A DNA stretch of 18,277 nt, from positions 1 through 18,277 of the forward strand of contig JANXYI010000345.1 in assembly GCA_025350085.1 (NCBI GenBank), read 5' to 3'. Source of the DNA: Deltaproteobacteria bacterium (GTDB lineage: Bacteria; Desulfobacterota; Desulfovibrionia; Desulfovibrionales; Desulfovibrionaceae). The notes under the pieces were generated by a model, which saw nothing but the letters and a program-made list of their open reading frames with translations, was not told the origin of the DNA and did not search any database. The position numbers and the translations under genes are program-made. Every line of letters starts with the position of its first letter. The stretch's first letter is position 1. Positions 1 through 11,378 of this stretch are shown here, piece by piece.

Positions 1-225
1 CTGGTACCGCCACAATCGGGCGGCCCTAAATGCCTCATCGCGAAGGTCTTCACCCAACACCTTAAAAAGCCCACGATCTAAACACAGAATGCGTGGTGAG
101 CCCCAGCGGAGAGGAACGATCGCTGAGCGTTGGTATTCCGGTGTGTCATGCCCGGTAACCAGCACCTCGGCGTTCATCACGCCCTGCTCGGTCAGAGTCT
201 CAATCAGCTCCAAGTCGGCGGGCAT
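1..225 (-). CDS. Unrecognised protein fragment, 3' part, runs off the left edge
   Basis: On the minus strand one frame is open from about position 289 to the window edge, with an ATG at 225. Its product from that ATG (about 75 residues to the edge) has a normal amino-acid mix, for example MPADLELIETL near the start and ILCLDRGLFKVLGED further on. The plus-strand reading of the same bases is rich in Ser, Arg and Pro and looks non-coding. I do not recognise the family. The stretch is lower in GC (about 54% over the first 120 bases) than the genes that follow. No good ribosome binding site precedes the ATG, so the true start may be lost at the junction with the kinase fragment. It could be the rest of a gene cut by rearrangement, or foreign sequence joined during assembly. 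Confidence 0.3.
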   Translation of the reverse strand, partial: MPADLELIETLTEQGVMNAEVLVTGHDTPEYQRSAIVPLRWGSPRILCLDRGLFKVLGEDLRDEAFRAARLWRYQ

Positions 226-814
226 CGAGTTGCGCGAGTCGTCAAAATTCGAGTTTACGCGCAACCTGAGCGATGCCCTGGCGCTCATGGTGGACCTGGG
301 CGAGCGGCACGGCTTCACCCGCGAGGACCTGTCCTACCTGAACAGCGACGTGTTCTATGACCTGTACCGCTCCTCCGCGGACATCACCGCGGTTTTCGAG
401 CGAGCCATCGCCACGGGCCGAGAGCTGCACCGCCGCTCCTGCGGCATCAACCTGCCGCCGCTCATCACCAGCGTCGCGGACGTCTGGGGCTTTGAGCTGC
501 CTGAGTCGGAGCCGAACTACGTGACCCTGCAGCGCGTGCGGGCCGAGGTGGGCGACCTGGCCGAGCCGGCCAGCCTGGCGGGCAGGATCGCCTGCGTCTC
601 CAGCGCTGACCCCGGCTACGACTGGCTGTTCTCCCGGGGCATCGCCGGGCTGGTGACGGCTTATGGCGGGGCCAACAGCCACATGGCCATCCGGGCCAAC
701 GAGCTGGGCATCCCCGCCGTTGTCGGCGCCGGCGAGACCCGCTATCAACTCTGGTCCAGGGCGCGGACCCTGGACATGGACTGCGCCAACTGCAAGGTGG
801 AAGTGCTGGCATGA
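226..814 (+). pseudogene. C-terminal fragment of PEP-synthase-like kinase, probable L-glutamine kinase (Cj1418-like)
   Basis: Only the last 195 or so residues are present. They start near IELRESSKFEFTRNLSDAL, a conserved stretch in PEP/pyruvate-binding-type kinases. They end in a swivelling phosphohistidine domain with GGANSHMAIRANELGIPAVVG; the carrier His is encoded at 680-682. Full-length relatives have roughly 750-800 residues with an N-terminal ATP-grasp domain, which is missing. The frame stays open to the left edge, but the upstream residues do not look like this family. Its stop overlaps the next start (ATGA at 811-814), and the next two genes match Cj1417 and Cj1416. I therefore infer the Cj1418 role: ATP-dependent phosphorylation of the amide nitrogen of L-glutamine. 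The family call is firm; the substrate rests on gene order. It is either a truncated gene or an intact gene broken by an assembly join. Confidence 0.6.
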
Positions 815-1407
815 GGCCCATACTCGTCTCCCAGCGCGTGGACGTGTGCCGCGACCGCCAGGAGCGCAGGGACGTCCTGGACCAGCGGCTGTGTCGTTTT
901 CTGGGCGCCTGCGGCTGTCTGCCCGTGCCCGTGCCCAATGCCGCGGCCCTTGTGCCCGGGCTCTGGGAAGCGGTGCAGCCGCAGGGGGTGCTGCTCTCCG
1001 GCGGCAACGACCTGCTCGCGCTGGGAGGAGACGTGCCCGAGCGCGAGGCGGCGGAGACGCTGCTCATCGAGCTGGCCGCGCGCCACGGAAAGCCGGTGTT
1101 CGGCATCTGCCACGGGCTGCAGCTCTTGGCGCACCTGGGCGGGGCGACGCTGTCCGCCATGGGGGGTCATGTGGCCAGCCGGCATGAGTTGACCGGGGCG
1201 GTCTGCCGCGAAGTGAACAGCTATCACCAGTGGGGCATCCAGGCCCTTGGCGCGGATTGGGAGGCGCTGGCGCGTGCGCGGGACGAAAGCGTGGAATATG
1301 CCTGTTGTCGCAGTATGCTGCAGGGGGGTATCATGTGGCATCCGGAGCGCGAGGAGCCCTTCGTCCCGGAAGACATGGCGCTTGTGCGCGAGGCCCTGGG
1401 CGGCTGA
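811..1407 (+). CDS. Class I glutamine-amidotransferase-fold hydrolase, probable gamma-glutamyl-CDP-amidate hydrolase (Cj1417-like)
   Basis: This 198-residue protein belongs to the gamma-glutamyl hydrolase branch (peptidase C26) of class I amidotransferases. The nucleophile is Cys100 in GICHGLQ. The other triad members are His177 and Glu179 in MWHPERE. SGGND (63-67) fits the oxyanion-hole loop and NSYHQWGI (136-143) is typical of the branch. There is no synthase domain, so it should hydrolyse a gamma-glutamyl amide by itself. The start overlaps the kinase stop by ATGA, so the two are probably translationally coupled. By gene order with Cj1418-Cj1417-Cj1416, I infer that it cleaves cytidine diphospho-L-glutamine to L-glutamate and cytidine diphosphoramidate. 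The alternative is a PuuD-like gamma-glutamyl-GABA hydrolase, which the neighbours make less likely. Confidence 0.75.
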   Translation: MRPILVSQRVDVCRDRQERRDVLDQRLCRFLGACGCLPVPVPNAAALVPGLWEAVQPQGVLLSGGNDLLALGGDVPEREAAETLLIELAARHGKPVFGICHGLQLLAHLGGATLSAMGGHVASRHELTGAVCREVNSYHQWGIQALGADWEALARARDESVEYACCRSMLQGGIMWHPEREEPFVPEDMALVREALGG

Positions 1408-1458
1408 ACCGGCAACGGCGTTTGCGTGGCGGCCTGCGCGGCCGCAGAGCAGGGAGTG

Positions 1459-2184
1459 ATGACCAAGGCGATTATTTTGGCCGCAGGGCGCGGCAGCCGC
1501 ATGAAGGCCCTCACGGACGACAGGCCGAAATGCCTGGTGGAGTTCCGCGGCAAGCCCCTGCTGCACTGGCAGCTGGAGGCCCTGCGTTCGGCCGGTGTGC
1601 GCGACATCGCCCTGGTGACCGGCTACCGGCGCGAGATGCTGGCCGGGCACGGGCTGCACGAGTTCCACAACGAGCGCTGGGCGGAGACGAACATGGTCGC
1701 TTCCCTAGCCTGCGCCCGGGAATGGCTGGAGAGCAGCCCCTGCCTCGTGAGCTATTCGGACATTGTGTATGAGCGCGCCGCCGTTGACGCAGTGCTGGGG
1801 AGCGAGGCGGACCTTGCGGTGGCCTATGACCTGGACTGGCTGCGGCTGTGGGAGGCGCGCTTCGGAAACCCGCTTGAGGATGCCGAAACCTTCCGCATCG
1901 ACGAAGCCTCACGCATTCTGGAAATCGGGCAAAAGCCTGAGTCCGTGGCCGAGATTCAAGGACAGTACATGGGGCTGTTGCGCTTTTGCCCGGCGGCCTG
2001 GGCGGCCATGCAGCGCGTGCGCGTGGCTTTGGAGCCCGCTAAGCGTGACAGGCTGGACATGACAGGCGCGCTGCAGCTCATGATCCTCTCCGGGTACGCG
2101 GTCACCGGCGTCCCGGTCCATTCGCATTGGGCGGAGTTCGACAGCGAGGAAGATTTGCGCCGCGTGGGCGGCCTGGGCCTGTGA
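1459..2184 (+). CDS. Small-molecule nucleotidyltransferase, probable CTP:phosphoglutamine cytidylyltransferase (Cj1416-like)
   Basis: This 241-residue protein has the NTP-transferase fold. The nucleotide loop is ILAAGRGSRM (6-15) with Lys24 in DDRPKC. A metal-binding Asp101 lies in SYSDIVYE and a second acidic site at 227-232 (FDSEED). The segments NERWAETNMVASL and DLDWLRLWEARFGNPLEDAE resemble phosphocholine and related cytidylyltransferases (LicC-like) more than glucose-1-phosphate enzymes. Placed directly after the hydrolase, it is inferred to transfer CMP from CTP to L-glutamine phosphate, giving cytidine diphospho-L-glutamine. An ATG at 1459 begins at the conserved MTKAIILAAG. The AGGGAG in front is very close to it, and GTG at 1456 is also possible. 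The gap to the hydrolase is 51 bases. Family confidence is high; substrate is by context. Confidence 0.75.
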   Translation: MTKAIILAAGRGSRMKALTDDRPKCLVEFRGKPLLHWQLEALRSAGVRDIALVTGYRREMLAGHGLHEFHNERWAETNMVASLACAREWLESSPCLVSYSDIVYERAAVDAVLGSEADLAVAYDLDWLRLWEARFGNPLEDAETFRIDEASRILEIGQKPESVAEIQGQYMGLLRFCPAAWAAMQRVRVALEPAKRDRLDMTGALQLMILSGYAVTGVPVHSHWAEFDSEEDLRRVGGLGL

Positions 2185-2228: not shown

Positions 2229-2867
2229 ATGATTGCGGTACTGGACAGTGGCATCGCCAACATCGGTTCGGTCCTGGCCGCGTGCCAGCGGGTGGGCGTT
2301 GCTGCGGTGGTCACCAGCGACCCGGCCGCCATCCCCGGGGCCTCGGCGCTCATCCTCCCCGGCGTAGGGGCCTTTGCTGACGGCATGGAGAGCCTGCGGC
2401 GCCACGGCCTGATCCAGCCCATTCTGGACGCCGCCCGGGCCGGCACGCCCATCCTGGGCATCTGCCTGGGCATGCAGTTGCTGGCCGAGTCCAGCGAGGA
2501 ATTCGGAACCCACCAGGGCCTCGGCCTGGTCCCGGGGAGCGTGCGGCGCCTGCAGGCCGTCCACCCTGGGGAGCGCATCCCGAACATCGGCTGGTGCGAC
2601 GTCTGGCGCTCCAGGCAGACCCGGATGTTCGCCGGGATCGAGGACGGCACCCCGTTCTATTTCGTGCACAGCTACCACCTCGACTGCTCCGACCCGATGG
2701 ACTGCGCCGGGACCATCGGTTTCGGAACAGGGGAAGTGTGCGCCGCCGTGGAGCGCGGCAACATCTGGGGGGCGCAGTTCCACCCGGAGAAGAGCCAGGA
2801 CGCGGGCCTGGAAGTGCTCGGCAATTTCGCCCGCCACATGCAACAGACAGGTTCCCGGGGGTCGTGA
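2229..2867 (+). CDS. HisH-type glutamine amidotransferase subunit (HisH2, for sugar amidination)
   Basis: This 212-residue glutaminase has the HisH layout. It begins IAVLDSGIANIGSV, has the oxyanion region LPGVGAF (43-49), nucleophile Cys79 in GICLGMQLL, and His185 and Glu187 in AQFHPEKSQ. It should release ammonia from glutamine and pass it to a HisF-like partner. The next gene encodes that partner fused to an amidotransferase, and no other histidine gene is nearby. A role in amidination of an N-acetyl sugar, as for HisH2 in WbpG/PseA loci, is therefore more likely than histidine synthesis. ATG 2229 is chosen because GGAGG (2220-2224) precedes it and the protein then starts where HisH proteins do. 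Its stop overlaps the next start in TGATG at 2865-2869. Confidence 0.88.
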   Translation: MIAVLDSGIANIGSVLAACQRVGVAAVVTSDPAAIPGASALILPGVGAFADGMESLRRHGLIQPILDAARAGTPILGICLGMQLLAESSEEFGTHQGLGLVPGSVRRLQAVHPGERIPNIGWCDVWRSRQTRMFAGIEDGTPFYFVHSYHLDCSDPMDCAGTIGFGTGEVCAAVERGNIWGAQFHPEKSQDAGLEVLGNFARHMQQTGSRGS

Positions 2868-4960
2868 TGCGCGCAACCGCTGAGCCTACGGCCGCCAAGA
2901 GGACCACAGGAGCGCGTCCGCGCCTGATCCCGGTGCTGTTGCTGAAGAACGGCCTCATTGTCCGCAGCCAGCTCTTCACCGTGCACCAGGTTATCGGCAA
3001 CCCCATGAGCACGGTGCAGCGGTTGTCGAGCTGGAACGTCGACGAGCTTGTCATTCTGGACATCAGCCGCGCGGACTCCGGGCACGACCTGCGCCGGGAC
3101 GACCTGCAGCAGCAGTACGCGGGCGAAACGGTGCTGGACGTGCTGCGCGAGATCTCCAAGGTCTGCTTCATGCCCCTGACCTTCGGCGGCCGCATCCGGA
3201 CGCTGAAGGACATTGAGGAGCGTCTGGCCAACGGCGCGGACAAGGTCACCTTGAACACGGCGGCGCTGCTGGACGCCGAGCTGGTGCAGAAGGCCGCGCT
3301 GCGGTTCGGCACCCAGTGCATCGTCGTGTCCATGGACGCCCGCAAAAGGCCCGAGGGCGGCTGGGAGGTCTTTTCCGGCGGCGGGCAGAACCCCACCGGG
3401 CTCGACCCGGCGGACTGGGCCGCAGAGGCGGAGCGCCTCGGCGCGGGCGAGATTCTGCTGAACTCCATCGACCGGGACGGCTCCGGCCTGGGCTATGACG
3501 TCGAGCTGATCCGGCATGTCTCCGGCCGGGTGGGCATCCCGGTGGTGGCCTGCGGCGGCGTCGGCGCGTACCAGCATTTTTCGGCGGGCATCGCCCAGGG
3601 CGGGGCCAGCGCCGTGGCGGCTGCCAACATCTTCCATTTCTTCGAGCTGAGCTACCCCCTGGCCAAGCAGGCCTGCCTGGAGGCGGGCATCCCCATGCGG
3701 CCCTTGGGCCTGGGAGCGCGCTACTTCCGCCGGGAGCCGAGTTACGACCGCGCGCGTGAGGATGCGCGCATCGAGACGCGGCTCAGGCAGGCCAGGGAGC
3801 AGGACTATCCCGCAGCCAGGCCCCGCGCGAAGCAGTCGAGCTTGAGCTGGTGCAAGCGCTGCGTGTATCCGTCCCTTTCCGCCACGCCTATGGACTACGA
3901 CCGGAACGGGGTCTGCACGGGCTGCCAGATGGCGGACATGAAGGCGAAGATCCCGGCCGCCGAGTGGAGCCGCCGCCGCGAGCTGCTGCGCGCCATCATC
4001 GAGCGCGGCTGCTGCCGCGACGGGAGCCGCCACGACGTGGTGATTGCCGTGTCCGGCGGCAAGGACTCCTACTTCCAGGTGCATGTGCTCAAGGAGGAGT
4101 TCGGCCTCAACCCGCTGCTGGTGACCTATGACGGCAACAACTACACCGAGGTCGGCTGGCGCAACCTGCTGCGCATGCGCGAGGTCTTCAACGTCGACCA
4201 CATCATCGTGCGCCCCGCAGTGGAGACGTTGCGGAAGCTGAACCGCCTGGCGTTCATCGTCATGGGCGACATGAACTGGCACGGCCATTGCGGCATCATG
4301 ACCGTGCCCATGATGACGGCGGTGCGGCACCGCATTCCCCTGGTGTTCTACGGGGAGCACGGCTACGCTGACCTCTGCGGCCAGTTCTCCATGGATGACT
4401 TTCCCGAGGTGAGCTACCGCTACCGGCTGGAGCACTTTGCCCGTGGGTATGAGTGGAACTACTTCATTGGCCGCGAGGGCCTGACGGAACAGGAGCTGGC
4501 CCTGTGGCGCTATCCCGGGGATAAGGAGATGCTTGAGCTGGGCCTGCGCGGCATCTTCCTGGGGAACTACACCCACTGGGAGGCCAACGAGCACATCAAG
4601 CTGGTGACGCAACGCTATGGGTTCGAGGTGCCGACCGAGCCCTTTGACCGCACCTACCGCACCATGTCCAACCTCGACGACATGCACGAGAACGGCGTCC
4701 ACGATTACCTGAAGTACGTGAAGTTCGGGTATGGCCGCGCCACGGACCACACCTGCAAGGACATCCGCGCCGGCTTGATGACTCGGGAGCGGGCCATGGA
4801 GCTCGTCCGGCAGTACGATCCGGTGCGGCCGCGGGACCTGCAGCGCTGGCTGGCCTACGTGGGGATGAGCGAAGAGGAGTTCGACCGCATCGCCGACACC
4901 TTCCGCGATCCGCGGGTGTGGCGCAGGGAGCAGGGCCGCTGGGTGCGGGACCTGCTGTAG
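2867..4960 (+). CDS. HisF-like domain fused to N-acetyl-sugar amidotransferase (WbpG/PseA type)
   Basis: A 697-residue two-domain protein. Residues about 18-280 form a HisF-like barrel. The usual first catalytic Asp (CLDV in HisF) is replaced by Leu in IPVLLLKNG, as in HisF2 proteins of sugar loci, while MDARK (156-160) keeps the Asp of the second site. A linker follows at about 285-322. Residues about 325-697 are the amidotransferase: two Cys pairs (C329/C332 and C350/C353), a PP-loop AVSGGKDS (394-401), and conserved stretches such as FYGEHGY and FLGNYTHWEANEH. The PP-loop domain should activate the acetamido group with ATP, and ammonia from HisH would travel through the barrel, giving an acetamidino sugar. 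These parts are normally two proteins. The frame is open across the join with no sign of frameshift. The start at 2867 shares bases with the HisH stop, implying coupling. The sugar substrate cannot be told from the sequence. Confidence 0.85.
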   Translation: MRATAEPTAAKRTTGARPRLIPVLLLKNGLIVRSQLFTVHQVIGNPMSTVQRLSSWNVDELVILDISRADSGHDLRRDDLQQQYAGETVLDVLREISKVCFMPLTFGGRIRTLKDIEERLANGADKVTLNTAALLDAELVQKAALRFGTQCIVVSMDARKRPEGGWEVFSGGGQNPTGLDPADWAAEAERLGAGEILLNSIDRDGSGLGYDVELIRHVSGRVGIPVVACGGVGAYQHFSAGIAQGGASAVAAANIFHFFELSYPLAKQACLEAGIPMRPLGLGARYFRREPSYDRAREDARIETRLRQAREQDYPAARPRAKQSSLSWCKRCVYPSLSATPMDYDRNGVCTGCQMADMKAKIPAAEWSRRRELLRAIIERGCCRDGSRHDVVIAVSGGKDSYFQVHVLKEEFGLNPLLVTYDGNNYTEVGWRNLLRMREVFNVDHIIVRPAVETLRKLNRLAFIVMGDMNWHGHCGIMTVPMMTAVRHRIPLVFYGEHGYADLCGQFSMDDFPEVSYRYRLEHFARGYEWNYFIGREGLTEQELALWRYPGDKEMLELGLRGIFLGNYTHWEANEHIKLVTQRYGFEVPTEPFDRTYRTMSNLDDMHENGVHDYLKYVKFGYGRATDHTCKDIRAGLMTRERAMELVRQYDPVRPRDLQRWLAYVGMSEEEFDRIADTFRDPRVWRREQGRWVRDLL

Positions 4961-4969
4961 CCCAGGAGC

Positions 4970-5398
4970 CTAGCCCTCCCGGGGCTCCGGAGCGAAGCGC
5001 TCCTTGTCTTCCTTCTCGGCGTAGGGCCCCTGCTTGACCTCGACCATCTCCGTTTCTTCGAGCATCTCGAAGTCGTGCCCGCCGCAAACCAGCAGGATCA
5101 CGTCCCCGGTCTTCAGGATGCGGGTGTCCAGGTACTTCTTCTGCTCGCTGTAAAAGTTGACCTTCACCAGCCCGCGTTTCACGAACAGGGTTTCTTGGGT
5201 GTAGAGCACCTGGCGCGGCAGCGGCTTGTGCAGGTGGGCCTGGATCTTGTGCCCCTTGGGGTGGCACATGGCGGCCAATTGCTGGGAGAAGCTGTTGGGC
5301 GTGAAGAAGGCAATGCCGGGCTGGCAGTACTCCGCATGGACGATGATGGCGATAACCCGGGAGTCGTCAAAGATCTGTTCGACCTGGGCTGTGTTCAT
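4970..5398 (-). CDS. Small cupin-fold protein
   Basis: A 142-residue protein with a beta-rich, double-psi-barrel look. HKIQAHLHKPLPRQVLY (50-66) gives histidines at 50, 55 and 57, then come FVKRGLVKVNFYSE and LKTGDVILLVCGGHDFEML with His108. The pattern resembles the WxcM/FdtA-like and capsule-locus cupins, but a metal site cannot be proved by eye. It could be a sugar-nucleotide isomerase or epimerase, or a binding protein; no definite role is assigned. GGAGAAAGC just before ATG 5398 is a good ribosome binding site. It is the last gene of the minus-strand series, 43 bases after the giant gene, and its stop is 9 bases from the stop of the opposing HisF-PseA gene. Confidence 0.75.
   Translation of the reverse strand: MNTAQVEQIFDDSRVIAIIVHAEYCQPGIAFFTPNSFSQQLAAMCHPKGHKIQAHLHKPLPRQVLYTQETLFVKRGLVKVNFYSEQKKYLDTRILKTGDVILLVCGGHDFEMLEETEMVEVKQGPYAEKEDKERFAPEPREG
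4989..5016 (+). terminator. Probable intrinsic terminator of the left plus-strand operon
   Basis: A perfect 6-bp stem GGAGCG/CGCTCC with a 3-base AAG loop (4989-5003) is followed by a T-rich run, TTGTCTTCCTTCT, on the plus strand. It lies 29 bases after the HisF-PseA stop and inside the 3' end of the opposing cupin gene. A second, looser hairpin, AGCCC/GGGCT, occupies 4972-4986. There is no pure T tract, so strength is uncertain. Confidence 0.5.
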
Positions 5399-5441
5399 GC
5401 TTTCTCCGGCATTGGTGGCGTCTTGCGCAGCGGACACGGGC

Positions 5442-8400
5442 TTACGGCCTCGGCTTGCTGTACAGGGAATCGCGCAAAACCTCCAGGTAGCGGCACCCCC
5501 AGCGGATGTCCGGCTCCAGGTGGTTGCCCTCGGCCCATTCGTTCCAGGACTTGAGGAAAAGGATGCGTGAGGCCTTGGGGCGGCTCGCAATCTTCTGCAG
5601 CAGGTCCTCCAGGTGCTCCGCGAAGAGCTCCGGGGTGGAGCCGTGCAACGCATGGCCCTTGCCTCCGCTGCGCGGCGTGTTGTCCCAGGCGTTGACCCCC
5701 AGCGGGTGCTCCCTGGGCCCAAGCTTCTGCCGCGCCATGTGGCACACGTAATCCGCATACTCGCGCACGGTGGGTGCCTGCCCGGGGTCGTGGAAGTGCA
5801 CGTCGGCCATCTGGCCGTTGAAATTGATGAAGGGCGCGTTGGCCACGCAGGTGTCGAAGCCGCGCCCCACCCAGTCGGAGCCACCGTGTTCCACGAAGTG
5901 GAAGTCGGGCAGGCCATGGGCGCGGGCCAGCCCGCGCCAGCACTCGGCGAAGGCCGTGGCGTCGGGCAGGCCGGAGGGGTTGTACACCAGGAACAGGTTG
6001 CGGCCCTCGATCTTGAGATAGCGCGGGTCGGCAAAGGCCGGAAGCAGGGCCTCAAAGTGCGCGCGGTAGTCGTCCAGGCCGGGGTAGTGCTGCTCCATCA
6101 GCACCCGCTGCGGGGCCCCGTGCCAGATGCCGGACCAGGTTTGGTTGGCCCAGCCCAGGCAGAAGGGGAAGTCCGGCTGGCCTGAGCGCACGATCTCGTC
6201 CACTGGGCGCTCCAGGAGCCGCCTGCCGTTGCCGAACCAATAGTGCCAGTACAGGAAGGCGTCCACGCCGTATTCGGCGGCCATCCTGGCCTGGGCGGCG
6301 CGGGCCTCGGGCAGGCGCAGGTCGTAGAAACCCAAGTCCGCCGGGACGTGGGGCTGGTAATGGCCCTCGAACAGCGGCAGCGCCTTGGCCGTGTTGGTCC
6401 ACTCCGTGAAGCCCTTGCCCCACCACGCGTCGTTCTCCGGGATGGGGTGGAACTGCGGCAGGTGGAAGGCGATGGCCAGGGCCCGCTTTTCCGGGAGGCC
6501 CTGCGCGCAGGGCTCCGGCCCGGAGGCGGTCTCTTTTGCGACGGAATGGGCGTGGGGCAGCAGCGCTGTCAGGTTGCCCAGGTCGACGTCCTCGGCGTGC
6601 AGTGCGGGTTCGCGCAGCAGGCGGAGCAGCTCTCCGAAATGCGGGTTTTCCGGCCGGTGCACGGCCATGGCCTCCCAGTCCTCGGCGATGAGGCTACCCC
6701 AGTTCTCCAGGGCGGAGAACACGGCGCGGTCGGCGTGGACCCTGCGGGCCAGATCCACGAAGGCCGGCATCTGCCGGAAGTTGTCCTTCTGGACGATCAT
6801 GCGCAGGATGAGGCGCAGGCCCGGATGCTCCAGGCGTTTGCCTCCGAGGAAGGCCAGGTTGCGCTCCAGCCGCTCCCAGTCGCCGCCGCGGCGCAGGCGG
6901 GCGTAGGTCGCGCTGTCTGCGGCGTCGACGGAGACGGCGAGCAGGGAGATGCGCTCCGGATAGCGGCCCAGGGTCTTGTCCCACATCCCGGGCGTCAGCA
7001 GCTGCCCGTTGGTGTCGATGCGGAATCTGACGTCGGGATGGGTGGCGGGGTCGAATTCAAGAAGCAGCTTCAGGTAGGCCCGGCTGGCAAAGGGGTCGCC
7101 TGCGCCGCAGATCCAGAGCTCGCCGCCCTTTTCGTCGAGCAGGCGCACGATCCCGGCGTGCATGGGTTCAAGGCGGGCGCTGTCCTCGCTCGGCAGGGCT
7201 CTGGGCGCGGTGCGGCAGGACGGGCAGCTCAGGTTGCAGCTGGGGTCGTCCTCCAGGGAGATGATGCCCGGCAGGGGCGCACTGGTTTCCGGCATCCAGG
7301 CCTCGATCCAGGAGTATTGCGTGCCGCGCAGCTCCTCGCGGCGGTGCAGCTCGTACGGGAGCTGATAGCGCGCCGGGGGGGTGCCCCCCCGAGCCTCCAG
7401 CAGGGCCTTTTGCATGCCTGCGCAGCGGCTCGCGTCGCAGTGCCGGTACGACCCGTCCAGGATGGAGGCGCGCAGGGACTGGGCGCGGGGCGAGTTCCAG
7501 ATTTCGTCGAGGGCCGTGTCGTGGATGTTACCGAAGCTCAGGTCCAGGTAGCAGCACGGGGCCACATCGCCGCCAGGGCGCAGTTCGGCGTAGAGGAACG
7601 GGTTGGGGCAGAGGAATTCCCCGAGCGGCGCCTTGGGGGGGGGCGGCAATTCTTGCCCCTTAGCCAGGTCCAGCAGCAGCTCCAGCAGACGCTCCGGACG
7701 ACCCATGAACACATCGAGCACGAGCTGGCGCGCCATGCGCAACTCCTCGGAGTCCCACCAGGCCAAGGGATCGTCCCAGATGCGTTCCAGGAAGGCCGCC
7801 GCCGCGTCCGGATCGCTCTGGACCATGCCGCAGCGCAGGAGCTGCTCCATGACAGGAACATAGCGGGCCGCGAAGATGTCCGTGCTGTGCAGCAGGAGCA
7901 CGGTCGGGCGCTCAAGCGCCACGGCCTCGACAAAGGTGGTGCTCAGCTGGTCCGTGAGCACGATTTCCGAGGCCTGGATGGCTTCGCGGGCAGCGTAGGA
8001 GTGGTCGTCCAGCAGACAGCCGTCCAGGAGCCCGTCCATCATGGCCTCATCGTCCCAGGCCAGGTTCGCCAGCTTGAAGAAGTCGTCGTAGGGGTAGCGG
8101 CGGTACACCAGACCGTTTTTCACCACGGCGGGCAGGCGGGAGAAGAGGCGCTGCTTCCATTCGTAGTACGGCAGCGCCCAGGGTCCACGGGCAACGGCGC
8201 ACTCCACACCACCGTGGGCCGTGCTGCGGGCGAAGGGCTTGGCGCTGAAATAGGTGCACCGGCGCGGCGGCTTGGCCTCCGGCCGGGTGGCGGCGAAATC
8301 GAACAGGCTGCCTGCGGCCAGGTACCTGGGGAGGTCCGGCTGCTCCAGGGTGCTGCAGCCGGCATAGATGTCACACACCGCCAACTGCTCGTGCAGGGGT

Positions 8401-11237
8401 GCCGCAAGGAATGGGGCGCAGCTCATGACGTGCTCATTGTAGATGTGCTGGACCCCGCGCCGGGAGAGCACGGCCAGGGCAAGGCACTCGTACGACTCGC
8501 CGACCCAGAACTCGCTGAGCACGTGGGCCAGGCGGGTGTGGGGGGCGAGATCCCGCTCAATGCTGCGCTCCAGGGCCAGGAAGTTCTCAAGCATGCTCTT
8601 GGGCAGTAGCCAGGGCAAGCAGGCCTGGAGGTACTGCGTGAAGCGGTCGGCCGAGCCGCCGCCAGCGCACAAGTCGAGGCGCCGGGGCAGGTCGGCCGGA
8701 GTGGCGTAGAGGTCGAGTTCGCGCCGGAATCCGATTTGCTCGATGTCGCCTCCGGAGTCTGAAATCAGGGCCTCCCTGTAGGGCGGGGCCGGGAAGGAGC
8801 CGAGGATGCCGACAACGGGGTTGTGGAGGGTGGGCGCGCCCACGCTACGCACGCGGTACTGGTTGTCGTGGCGCAGCAGATGGAAGCGGCAGGGCGCGTC
8901 CGGTTGCAGGGCGCGCACATACAGCGAAAAGGCCTGCTCCATGCCAAAATCCGAGTGCTGCAGGAGCCAGCGCAGGTCGTCGAAGTCCAGGGGGACGTGG
9001 TAGCCCGCAGGATCGAGCAGGATCGCGTCGTGCCTCTCCGGAGAAAATTCCCTTTCGAACAGGTCGAAAAAATCCCAGAGCAGATGCGTCAGATCCACGA
9101 TCCCCATGCCCAGGGCTTTGACCCAGAACCGTGTGCCGCGGGGACCTCCCGGGTGCAGGGCCTCGAGCCCGGCGGTGAGCTCGGCGGTGATCTTCTCTGC
9201 GGCGCGGCGCAGCGTGTCGTTCAGGGCCGACAGGGCTTCCGGCGCCGCGAGGCGCCAGGGGGCGGCGGGCGCAGCGGCCAGGCGTTTGTCCCAGCGCGCG
9301 CGCTGGGACAGGAACGGGTCGGCAAGATAGACAGGGTCGGCATCCGGCCCCTGGGGATCGTCAAGCATGAGGGGACTGACGAGAAAGCGTTTCCTGGCCT
9401 GGGACGGGGAGAGCTCCCGCAGCAGCTGTTTTGCTCTTTGGAGCTCCTCCCGTGAGTGGTCCTGCCGGCGTCCGTCCAGACGCGCGGTCTCCTCCATCCA
9501 TTGCGGGATGCCCTCGGTGTCGAAGAATTTGAGAGGCAAAGTGTGGAAGGCCTGGGCCAGCCTTTCCCGCTGCTGCGCGTCGTGGTGGTGCACGCTCCAG
9601 CCCATGAGCCCGATAAGCCGCGCCGGCAGGAACCGGGACATCCAATCGCGGATGGCAGGCTCAAGCTCTTTGGGGACGTCGCTTTTAGGCTGCAGACGGT
9701 GGTACTCGGCGAGGTGCTCGGCTGCGGTGAGCCAGGTGTCCCCGTCCAGGGAGGGGTCGGGATAGATGTGGGTGATGATGGCCTTGGCGGCGTAAAAATG
9801 GGCCAGGGCCGAATCCGGCAGCAGGACCGCGGCCCGCTCGGCCAGGATGGGGATGAGGATGTCGCGCTTCAGGGCCTTGGCCAGCGCTGTCCGGACAAAG
9901 TCCTGGTCGGTCACGCCCGCCGGGGTCTCGGCCAGGGGCAGGGTCCGCCACTCTGGGGCGGCCCGCCTGGCGAGCATCCTGGGGATGCTGTCCAGCACGA
10001 GGCGCAGACCCTGGCCAAGGGCAGGGTACTTGCCGGCGCGAAAGGCGAGTATTTCAAGGTGTTTGTACGTATCAGGCAGGGCGAAGTCCGCCAGGGCCGT
10101 CCAGAGCTGGTCCCTGTCGTGGACCATGCGGCCCACGGGCGTTTCCACGGGCTGGGCCGAGTACGGCGCGAAATAATCCAGCTTGATGGACGGCCGGCCC
10201 GAGGCCACGCTGAAAATCTCCGCCGAACTCCCGCGGTGGTGGATCAGAACGGCGCCGTCGGCGTAGTCGTCAAGGTAGGTCGGCGCAGTGCTCCAGAAAA
10301 AGCGCGGGTGATACAGAAGCGGGGCGAGGTGCGGGCGCACCGTGTCCTCATCGCCCGGGAAGCAGCGGAACACCAGACGCCTGTCCGGGTGGCGCCTGAG
10401 GATCTCCTCCAGGGTCGTCGTGAGTCCGTGTTTGACTTCGGCGTGCTCCAGATCCCAGGACGAAAGATTGTAGATGATGTCCGACGGCGTACCCCGCTGG
10501 CAGCGGCGGGCAAATTGATCCAGCTTGAAGGAGCCGACGTTGATGGCGTGGAGGCTCGGGTTGTCGTGGTCGGCCAGGCAGTGCGGCAGCACGCCGTCAT
10601 AGTGCTCCAGGTAGTCTTCGCGGAACATCTCCGGGCTGAAGGAGGGGCTGAGGAGGTAGTCGAAGAGCAGTCCGGCGCCGTAGAAATCCACGGAGTACTG
10701 GAACAGGATGTCCGTACCGTGTGGCTGGAGCAAGCGCACGGAGCCCGGCGGTAGCTCGGTATTATACAAACAGTCGATGGCCCAGAACACCGAGGCGAAG
10801 TCGATGCGGCTAAGCAGGTTGCGGTCAGGGATGTACAGGGGCTGGTGCCCGCAAAAGACATCCTCCACGTGGAATTCGTCTAGGGAGCGCCAGCGGTTGG
10901 TGATGAGAAAAACCACGGGGTAGCGGCCGTCGTCCAAGATGTCGCGGGCCACTTCGGTCTGCTGCGTGTTGGACAGGAAGTCCTCGAAGACCCAGAAGAC
11001 GATGGCCGTCTGCCCGGCTAGGGCCTTCCGGTAGTGGCTCAGCTGGAGATCCACGGCCTTGCGGAGGCGGGTTTCGACCGGCTCCTGCGAGGGGGCGAGG
11101 AGGCTCTGCGCGGGGTCGAATCCCAGCGCTTCCAGGACCGCAGCCATGACGGCCACGGCTGTGGCTTCGCGACCAGGACGGGGGGCGAGGGTTCGGTTCG
11201 CCTCTTTGAACCAGAAGGGGAGTCGCTGTCTCAACAC
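5442..11237 (-). CDS. Giant multidomain protein: two glycosyltransferase-like regions, SPASM, radical SAM and GH99-like (WbsX) domain
   Basis: About 1930 residues in one uninterrupted frame. Numbering here is from a TTG at 11285. Residues 90-400 look like a GT-B enzyme of the CDP-glycerol-transferase kind, with LLQPHGTDI near 185 and [16 protein letters not shown] near 350. Residues 430-720 are mostly helical and unassigned. Residues 750-1200 hold a second transferase-like region, with EFWVGESYE near 925 and [17 protein letters not shown] near 1111. A SPASM-type segment (C1226, C1244, C1245, C1283, C1288) is followed by a radical SAM domain with CNLSCPSC (C1350/C1354/C1357). Residues 1601-1940 form a GH99-like/WbsX domain ([33 protein letters not shown]). 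No signal peptide is visible, so it is probably cytoplasmic and acts on a surface glycan or glycoprotein. The GTG at 11237 is preferred because AGGA lies 10 bases upstream, while the TTG at 11285 has no such site. Confidence 0.8.
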   Translation of the reverse strand: [1931 protein letters not shown]

Positions 11238-11378
11238 GCTGCCATTATCCTGACGGTTTGTTGTTCCTGCCAAACTGGGGCGCAACGCCGCGCGAGTAGG
11301 CCGGAGCGCTCGTGCCTGCGCCGCCGCTACGGTGCCTGTTCTGTCCGGGCCGGATCAGGCTCAGGACCCAGCGACTAC

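Follow-up and report, generated by a model that had tools for sequence, protein, structure and literature searches.

The O-methyl phosphoramidate (MeOPN) group of the Campylobacter jejuni capsule depends on an L-glutamine kinase (Cj1418), a γ-glutamyl-cytidine diphosphate (CDP)-amidate hydrolase (Cj1417), and a cytidine triphosphate (CTP):phosphoglutamine cytidylyltransferase (Cj1416), encoded in the order Cj1418-Cj1417-Cj1416, and on Cj1415, a relative of adenylylsulfate (APS) kinase that acts on CDP-amidate. Its transferases are Cj1421 and Cj1422. We describe a locus with the same three gene families in the same order on an 18,277-nucleotide stretch of DNA (the window; contig JANXYI010000345.1 of assembly GCA_025350085.1) from a Deltaproteobacteria bacterium of the Desulfovibrionaceae. 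PMC3907429 describes the four genes of the Campylobacter pathway together with the transferases, and PMC10919079 mentions them briefly. The cj1415 gene lies downstream of cj1416, and nuclear magnetic resonance (NMR) showed a signal of the group for 9 out of 13 Campylobacter strains that have orthologues of cj1416-1418 (PMC3907429). Reviews have called the group identified only in Campylobacter so far (2019, PMC6429109) and have referred to a 'C. jejuni-specific glutamine kinase' (2022, PMC9561416). A phosphoramide is also carried by a bacterial surface glycan outside Campylobacter, the lipooligosaccharide of Xanthomonas campestris (PMC8042644). The O-methyl phosphoramidate-like cluster proposed in 2025 for the Cobalt Borg (PMC12660748) resembles the present locus in having putative phosphoglutamine cytidylyltransferase-type genes in a glycoconjugate region outside Campylobacter, but it belongs to an archaeal extrachromosomal element and was assigned by predicted structure. 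Extension beyond Campylobacter is therefore not new as an idea. We found no paper on the bacterial spread of the pathway in the open-licence literature; primary enzyme papers may mention homologues. The genes described here are new members of a known pathway whose spread goes far beyond that stated in the literature found.

The window is the entire contig C212 of a 462-contig metagenome-assembled genome that is 73.8% complete. Its closest relatives resemble sulfate reducers of the Desulfovibrio type: dsrA was above the cut-off in 22 of 26 genomes searched (the incomplete genome of the window is not among the 22), and the 'Desulfovibrio-like' label of the initial annotation fits. We consider it likely that the locus encodes the core of a CDP-phosphoramidate pathway feeding a surface glycan. 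The observations are homology, catalytic residues, gene order, and wide co-occurrence, and each reaction, the transferase, and the acceptor are predicted from them. The three genes are as follows.

217..814, plus strand: C-terminal part of an L-glutamine-kinase-like (phosphoenolpyruvate (PEP)-synthase-like) protein with a phospho-histidine swivel domain (NF004508, PF00391).
811..1407, plus strand: γ-glutamyl-CDP-amidate hydrolase-like protein with a class I glutamine amidotransferase fold, 198 residues (NF045546, catalytic triad, tree).
1459..2184, plus strand: CTP:phosphoglutamine cytidylyltransferase-like protein of the LicC/COG1213 type, 241 residues (PF12804, LicC).

For gene order we used, apart from the window, 91 independent kinase loci (L046-L057 and L061-L139) that had been selected with kinase or hydrolase profiles. 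Four rows were excluded before counting: L058 and L059 have no kinase, L060 is on the contig of L047, and L145 is a copy of the window. The order rule required the same strand, a hydrolase no more than 400 bases from the kinase end, and a cytidylyltransferase within 2.6 kb; absence on short contigs is uninformative. The three genes are consecutive in 82 of the 91 loci, the nine failing being L048, L052, L057, L092, L110, L118, L126, L137, and L138. Because the order recurs this widely in loci picked on kinase or hydrolase profiles, it does not arise by chance. A Cj1415-type kinase is present in 84 of the loci. In 12 loci it is encoded in a single frame together with the glutamine-kinase-like protein. 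One of these, L057, is a short and doubtful case, and Acidobacteria bins account for eight of the remaining 11 (L110, L113, L114, L117, L120, L121, L122, L124, L133, L135, and L136). The initial annotation had matched the trio and its order to Cj1418-Cj1417-Cj1416, and both the profiles and the recurring order uphold that assignment. Its observation was right, and sequence evidence supports its interpretation well.

A scan of named-species genomes with a kinase alignment gave at least 572 confirmed relatives. The best 80 were analysed, so the shares apply to loci close to the query kinases. Kinase, hydrolase, and cytidylyltransferase occur together in 77 of these 80, and 72 also have the Cj1415-type kinase. 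A phylum name is carried by 78 of the best 80 loci, and the names cover nine phyla, although single metagenome bins may be misassigned: Pseudomonadota (58), Acidobacteriota (8), Verrucomicrobiota (4), Bacteroidota and Planctomycetota (2 each), and Balneolota, Cyanobacteriota, Nitrospinota, and Spirochaetota (1 each). In the stretches fetched for Cyanobacteriota and Spirochaetota, no Cj1415-type kinase was seen. Within the phylum of the window, an even sample of 395 genomes yielded the kinase at an expectation value (E) of 1e-30 or better in eight (own genome included), six of them above the cut-off; that of G313 is also a fragment. The hydrolase scored at least 87 bits in 6 of 59 relatives (own genome included), and no other match exceeded 48 bits; these others appear to be ordinary amidotransferases. 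On an Azospirillum lipoferum plasmid the public annotation reads adenylyl-sulfate kinase, S-adenosylmethionine (SAM) methyltransferase, PEP-utilizing enzyme, γ-glutamyl-γ-aminobutyrate hydrolase family, and phosphocholine cytidylyltransferase family, so that the pathway goes unrecognised there. Phosphoramidate chemistry is probably far commoner than thought.

The kinase fragment matches NF004508/PRK05849 over bases 218-808 at profile positions 588-788 of 789 (201 positions, the last quarter) with 244 bits; the family cut-off is 501 bits. The model is titled only 'hypothetical protein', and we take it to be the Cj1418 family. PF00391 matches with 54.6 bits. The fragment is 87% identical over 190 residues to the full-length kinase of a sister species (genome G005, locus L047/L060, record JAHIUD010000040.1, 'Proteobacteria bacterium isolate MM_PC_MetaG.mb.237'), which lies at L047:10264-12582 on the minus strand and passes NF004508 with 934 bits. 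The swivel-domain histidine is present (codon 680-682), and its column is invariant among eight aligned kinases. Some related kinase frames differ in architecture. In the same genus, L046:10186-13017 (minus strand) has extra N-terminal residues resembling an HxGH-type cytidylyltransferase, which we take from a motif spotted by eye. The N-terminal parts of L053:8894-11932 (minus strand) and L054:8242-11280 are nucleotidyltransferase-like (cytidylyltransferase profile, 48 and 41 bits). In MT837632.1, an unannotated 9.5 kb record named 'Bacteriophage sp.' and derived from human faeces, bases 703-2994 hold a near-complete kinase relative (32% identity, 97% covered).

The hydrolase start is joined to the kinase stop by an ATGA overlap. 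The best NCBIfam model for the window hydrolase is NF045546 (88.4 bits, nearly the whole model covered), compared to 27 bits for guanosine monophosphate (GMP) synthase and 24 bits for PuuD. Two PuuD-like controls from related genomes show the reverse preference, scoring 107 and 69 bits with PuuD versus 55 and 48 bits with NF045546. The triad C100, H177, and E179 is present, as the initial annotation had stated for the catalytic residues of this protein and the next, and it is invariant across 91 module hydrolases. NF045546 picks up every one of the 91 aligned module hydrolases at E 1e-5 (best 5e-38); the PuuD model matches 86 of them, more weakly by best E (1e-15), and the GMP synthase model 89. 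In a tree of 113 rows, which omits L057 and has no Cj1417 sequence, one branch parts 90 module hydrolases from 23 other amidotransferases with support 89/92. The same split occurs in 84% of 200 bootstrap trees, the bootstrap having not yet settled. The tree backs the hydrolase assignment of the initial annotation less firmly than the profiles do. The window and sister hydrolases by themselves are separated from the outgroup with support 100/100. The window hydrolase groups with that of the sister, next with Chitinibacter and Andreprevotia (99/89), and then with Pseudomonas (96/92), whereas the copies of other relatives, including G009 and G010 of its own genus, fall outside this group. This placement suggests that the gene may have been acquired by horizontal transfer.

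The cytidylyltransferase at 1459-2184 matches NTP_transf_3 (PF12804), and its closest solved structure is LicC (1jyk, 58 bits). Residues G10, G12, R14, K24, D101, and D228 are present. The protein is 85% identical to the sister copy and 35-62% identical to the other 85 aligned module copies, an alignment that leaves out loci where the gene is missing or cut short. For Cj1416, phosphoglutamine as the substrate agrees with PMC12275187. A tree built to separate the cytidylyltransferase from LicC was uninformative, the outgroup consisting of only four long-branched paralogs.

The kinase gene of the window is cut at the contig edge, where one further feature lies.

1..216, no strand: stretch unrelated to the kinase locus, probable chimeric or foreign contig end (no matches).

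DNA similarity to the sister genome begins abruptly at base 217 and continues at 83.5% up to base 2174. Bases 1-216 had no match at the sister locus or elsewhere in the window's own genome, their minus-strand protein had none in 58 related genomes, and 81 residues of the minus strand had no Pfam match. The idea that these bases are part of the kinase was rejected, as the DNA alignable to kinase genes starts only at 217. They are probably a chimeric contig end. The kinase lacks its N terminus because the contig begins inside the gene, and we read the short kinase as the result of a contig end, perhaps a chimeric one.

The initial annotation reported no Cj1415-type kinase in the window. We did not find one there either, but the idea that the pathway differs for this reason falls away: the gene is on contig C321 of the same genome, and its absence from the window is a contig-end effect. 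It was found using the sister's copy, to which it is 82% identical over 152 residues, and is an open frame of 177 residues (L142:1566-2099); the row from the sister-copy search reports one TGA inside the matched stretch. The protein passes NF004041/PRK05541 (APS-kinase fold) with 148.7 bits versus a cut-off of 127, a family to which we assume Cj1415 itself belongs. C321 also encodes a NeuB-like synthase (283.8 bits, below the best model's cut-off of 399.65; Pfam NeuB above cut-off), an asparagine synthase (367 bits versus 267), and P397, a GDSL-like protein of 408 residues (Pfam 25 bits, below cut-off). The contig is cut at its end inside a methyltransferase 78% identical over 102 residues to the G005 methyltransferase that directly precedes the kinase in the sister, a genome that also has its own Cj1415-type kinase. 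C321 thus probably continues into the window. Compared to the C. jejuni MeOPN pathway, the families and the order of the trio are the same and the genome has the Cj1415-type kinase. The host group differs, the Cj1415-type kinase and methyltransferase precede the trio in the sister (and presumably in the window's genome) instead of following it, and the system is coupled to NeuB-like and HisH/HisF/WbpG genes.

Several families recur beside the trio in the 91 loci. The SAM methyltransferase family c2 is present in 72, and under stricter clustering 60 of 66 loci have it no more than 100 bases away from a module gene; distances were taken from stop-to-stop frames and are slightly short. A CysQ-like 3',5'-bisphosphate nucleotidase (227.6 bits, just under the cut-off of 228.8) occurs in 13 loci, in 11 of them immediately after the hydrolase. 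Its position would fit a 3'-phosphorylated donor, whose transfer would leave 3'-phospho-cytidine monophosphate (CMP). The families c8, c9, and c13 are interlinked by hhalign at 100% and resemble TagF/CDP-glycerol glycerophosphotransferase: PF04464 is above cut-off for the c8 and c13 representatives, and c9, which has no Pfam match, is connected through hhalign. These TagF-like families are found in 34 loci, 23 of which have the TagF-like gene no more than 100 bases from a module gene. The corresponding numbers for other clusters are 0 of 17 (c4), 0 of 14 (c5), 6 of 20 (c3), and 4 of 7 (c18). Thirteen of the 91 loci have a member of c12, a sulfotransferase-like family whose Pfam match is below cut-off. 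The family is never found together with a TagF-like family at E 1e-5, and at 1e-3 both are in L053. We propose that the TagF-like and sulfotransferase-like families may be alternative phosphoramidyl transferases. On Vibrio alfacsensis plasmid pVa1 (L147), cysN and cysD lie beside the kinase, the hydrolase, and a CDP-glycerol phosphotransferase family gene, with a run of glycosyltransferases adjoining.

Tailoring candidates are distributed unevenly. P239, a formyltransferase-like protein (Formyl_trans_N), is in 12 of the 91 loci (L070, L071, L073, L077, L115, L103, L126, L134, L046, L047, L048, and L050), P191 is in 10, all with P239, and P397 is in two. The c2 methyltransferase never shares a stretch with P239, P191, or P397, even at E 1e-3, although kinship among the Pseudomonas loci weakens this pattern. 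Of the three, P397 is in the window's genome and P191/P239 are in the sister, and both genomes have a methyltransferase missed by the c2 profile. For P397, P191, c9, c12, and c17 the Pfam match is absent or below cut-off.

The remainder of the window holds glycan genes and a candidate transferase.

2229..2867, plus strand: HisH-like glutaminase partner of a sugar amidotransferase (TIGR01855, 204.8 bits, above cut-off).
2867..4960, plus strand: HisF/WbuZ-like and WbuX/WbpG-like N-acetyl-sugar amidotransferase in a single frame of 697 residues.
4970..5437, minus strand: WbuC-like cupin, weak (TIGR04366, 30 bits, cut-off 42).
5442..11285, minus strand: protein of 1947 residues, a single frame with TagF-like, LIC12162-like, SPASM, radical SAM-like, and WbsX domains.
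9936..10757, minus strand: TagF/CDP-glycerol-phosphotransferase-like domain, residues about 177-450 of the 1947-residue protein (joint profile, hhalign).
5442..9368, minus strand: LIC12162-type transferase (about 7707-8777), SPASM, radical SAM, and WbsX glycosyltransferase domains of the same protein.

The frame at 2867-4960 scores 295 bits with WbuX (TIGR03573), above cut-off, and 249 bits with WbuZ (cut-off 299.7); the two parts are separate frames in G005. The glycan probably contains a nonulosonic acid and an amidino sugar, because a NeuB-like gene is on C321 and HisH/HisF/WbpG genes follow the trio. The 1947-residue protein scores 175 bits with LIC12162 (cut-off 225) and 29.2 bits with radical SAM (cut-off 29.5). 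The initial annotation had seen no phosphoramidate transferase in the window, but the N-terminal domain of this protein is a candidate for one. A joint c8/c9/c13 profile matches the protein at E 3.6e-7, and in hhalign its first 480 residues match c8 at 97.5% and c9 at 77%. A model of residues 1-500 (predicted local distance difference test score (pLDDT) 70) is like the glycosyltransferase B (GT-B) fold, and TagF (3l7m) ranks fifth among its matches, after two UDP-GlcNAc 2-epimerase chains, PimA, and a capsule multienzyme. The model of the Pseudomonas TagF-like member L068 (pLDDT 87.6) has a capsule-polymer multienzyme as its top match and a same-named entry with CMP at rank 6, with 2-epimerases close behind. 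Template modelling (TM) scores for the TagF-like fold matches are mostly 0.4-0.55, and the top ranks are shared with UDP-GlcNAc 2-epimerases. These matches are generic to GT-B, and the fold is therefore supported while the substrate is not. The predicted fold fits a CDP-dependent transferase and is not proof of one, and we propose the domain as a candidate phosphoramidyl transferase. It is a more distant relative of PF04464 than c8 and c13. TagF moves glycerol phosphate, whereas the window and partner proteins are predicted to move phosphoramidate.

These data suggest the following sequence of reactions. Phosphoglutamine would be coupled to CMP from CTP by the cytidylyltransferase, and the hydrolase would strip glutamate to give CDP-amidate (cytidine diphosphoramidate). 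The Cj1415-type kinase encoded on C321 would then put on a 3'-phosphate, and a transferase, proposed to be the TagF-like N-terminal domain of the 1947-residue protein, would pass the phosphoramidate to a sugar hydroxyl.

Several points weigh against this scheme. The Campylobacter assignment is an indirect one, made by profile and gene order and, less firmly, by the hydrolase tree. A search of the window's own assembly for the N-terminal half of the kinase, run without a positive control, found nothing. The window hydrolase, at 88 bits, is below the curated NF045546 cut-off of 250, and it is therefore termed a relative and not a certified member. The transferase candidate is 3.3 kb from the trio on the opposite strand, it does not align to c13 (hhalign 1%), and structurally it matches GT-B enzymes as a class. 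The large-protein copy in G005 is a 784-residue frame that matches the window over 738 residues only (78% identical), and no TagF-like match was found in the sister stretches searched. The sister has a sulfotransferase-like gene instead (L143:15011-16450, G005:C97; c12 profile E 1.7e-23, Pfam below cut-off), and it lies well away from the trio on its contig. Of 93 rows, counted with the window and its copy L145, 45 have neither transferase candidate in the fetched stretch; L145 and some of the short contigs are among those 45. No model is dedicated to the cytidylyltransferase, whose family takes several phospho-substrates, namely phosphocholine, phosphoglutamine, and, in Caulobacter, phosphoglycerate (PMC12275187).

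The range of substrates accepted by COG1213 enzymes leaves room for a different product. The enzymes could make a compound with a phosphorus-nitrogen (P-N) bond or another CDP-activated group that does not decorate a glycan, such as a small molecule or a lipid head group. In keeping with this idea, a distant kinase (35%) on a Cupriavidus taiwanensis plasmid (L149) lies beside a thiamine pyrophosphate (TPP) enzyme and an aminotransferase. No hydrolase or cytidylyltransferase is annotated at L149, where the gene table is incomplete, and the kinase perhaps has another function. The window locus, however, is rich in glycan genes, glycosyltransferases flank the module in Vibrio and sugar-nucleotide genes do so elsewhere, and the CDP-glycerol-phosphotransferase-like partners fit transfer onto a polymer. 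We judge a product other than a glycan decoration to be unlikely.

The trio could also be a decaying remnant whose kinase is truly broken at base 217, as the unrelated bases 1-216 and the missing N terminus might indicate. The break coincides, however, with a contig end in a fragmented and incomplete assembly, the hydrolase and cytidylyltransferase frames are open with their catalytic residues kept, and C321 stops within the methyltransferase gene, whose sister counterpart comes right before the kinase. Decay is very unlikely. Slightly less probable still is glycan sulfation, in which the Cj1415-type kinase would be an ordinary adenylylsulfate kinase and the sulfotransferase-like neighbours in 13 loci true sulfotransferases. 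The kinase does score as an adenylyl-sulfate kinase, and cysN and cysD adjoin the kinase gene on the Vibrio plasmid. At E 1e-10, however, the stretches fetched for the 91 loci, with flanks of about 10 kb at most, contain no CysN/CysD relative, the Cj1415-type kinase and the glutamine-kinase-like protein form a single fusion in 11 loci (L057 not counted), and Cj1415 is itself an APS-kinase relative that acts on CDP-amidate. A chance association of a PuuD-like hydrolase and a phosphocholine cytidylyltransferase with a PEP-synthase-like gene is hardly credible: the Azospirillum plasmid annotation uses those names, LicC is the best solved match, and most module hydrolases also match PuuD, but the trio is in order in 82 of 91 loci, the window hydrolase and the PuuD-like controls prefer opposite models, and the tree sets the outgroup apart.

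The reading that we prefer, a CDP-phosphoramidate core that feeds a surface glycan, permits a broader and more tentative generalization. CDP-phosphoramidate decoration may be a common modular bacterial trait, with a constant donor core, a TagF-like or sulfotransferase-like transferase, and exchangeable tailoring (c2, or P239, or P397), in which loci like those of the window's genus would make a non-O-methyl phosphoramidate. We hold this as a possibility on the doubtful side.

If the module works as read, enzymatic P-N chemistry on surface sugars would extend across nine named phyla, and its carriers would include plant, soil, freshwater, and marine bacteria (by record names), some of them in culture, such as Chitinibacter tainanensis DSM 15459 (L063) and Pseudomonas chlororaphis EA105 (L131). 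The regular partner genes point to the last steps of the pathway. The missing steps of transfer, methylation, and 3'-phosphate recycling, each with candidate genes, could then be studied in organisms other than a pathogen. The group serves as a phage receptor in Campylobacter, where it also influences serum resistance (PMC3907429, PMC9561416), and it may therefore matter in phage-host contests elsewhere.

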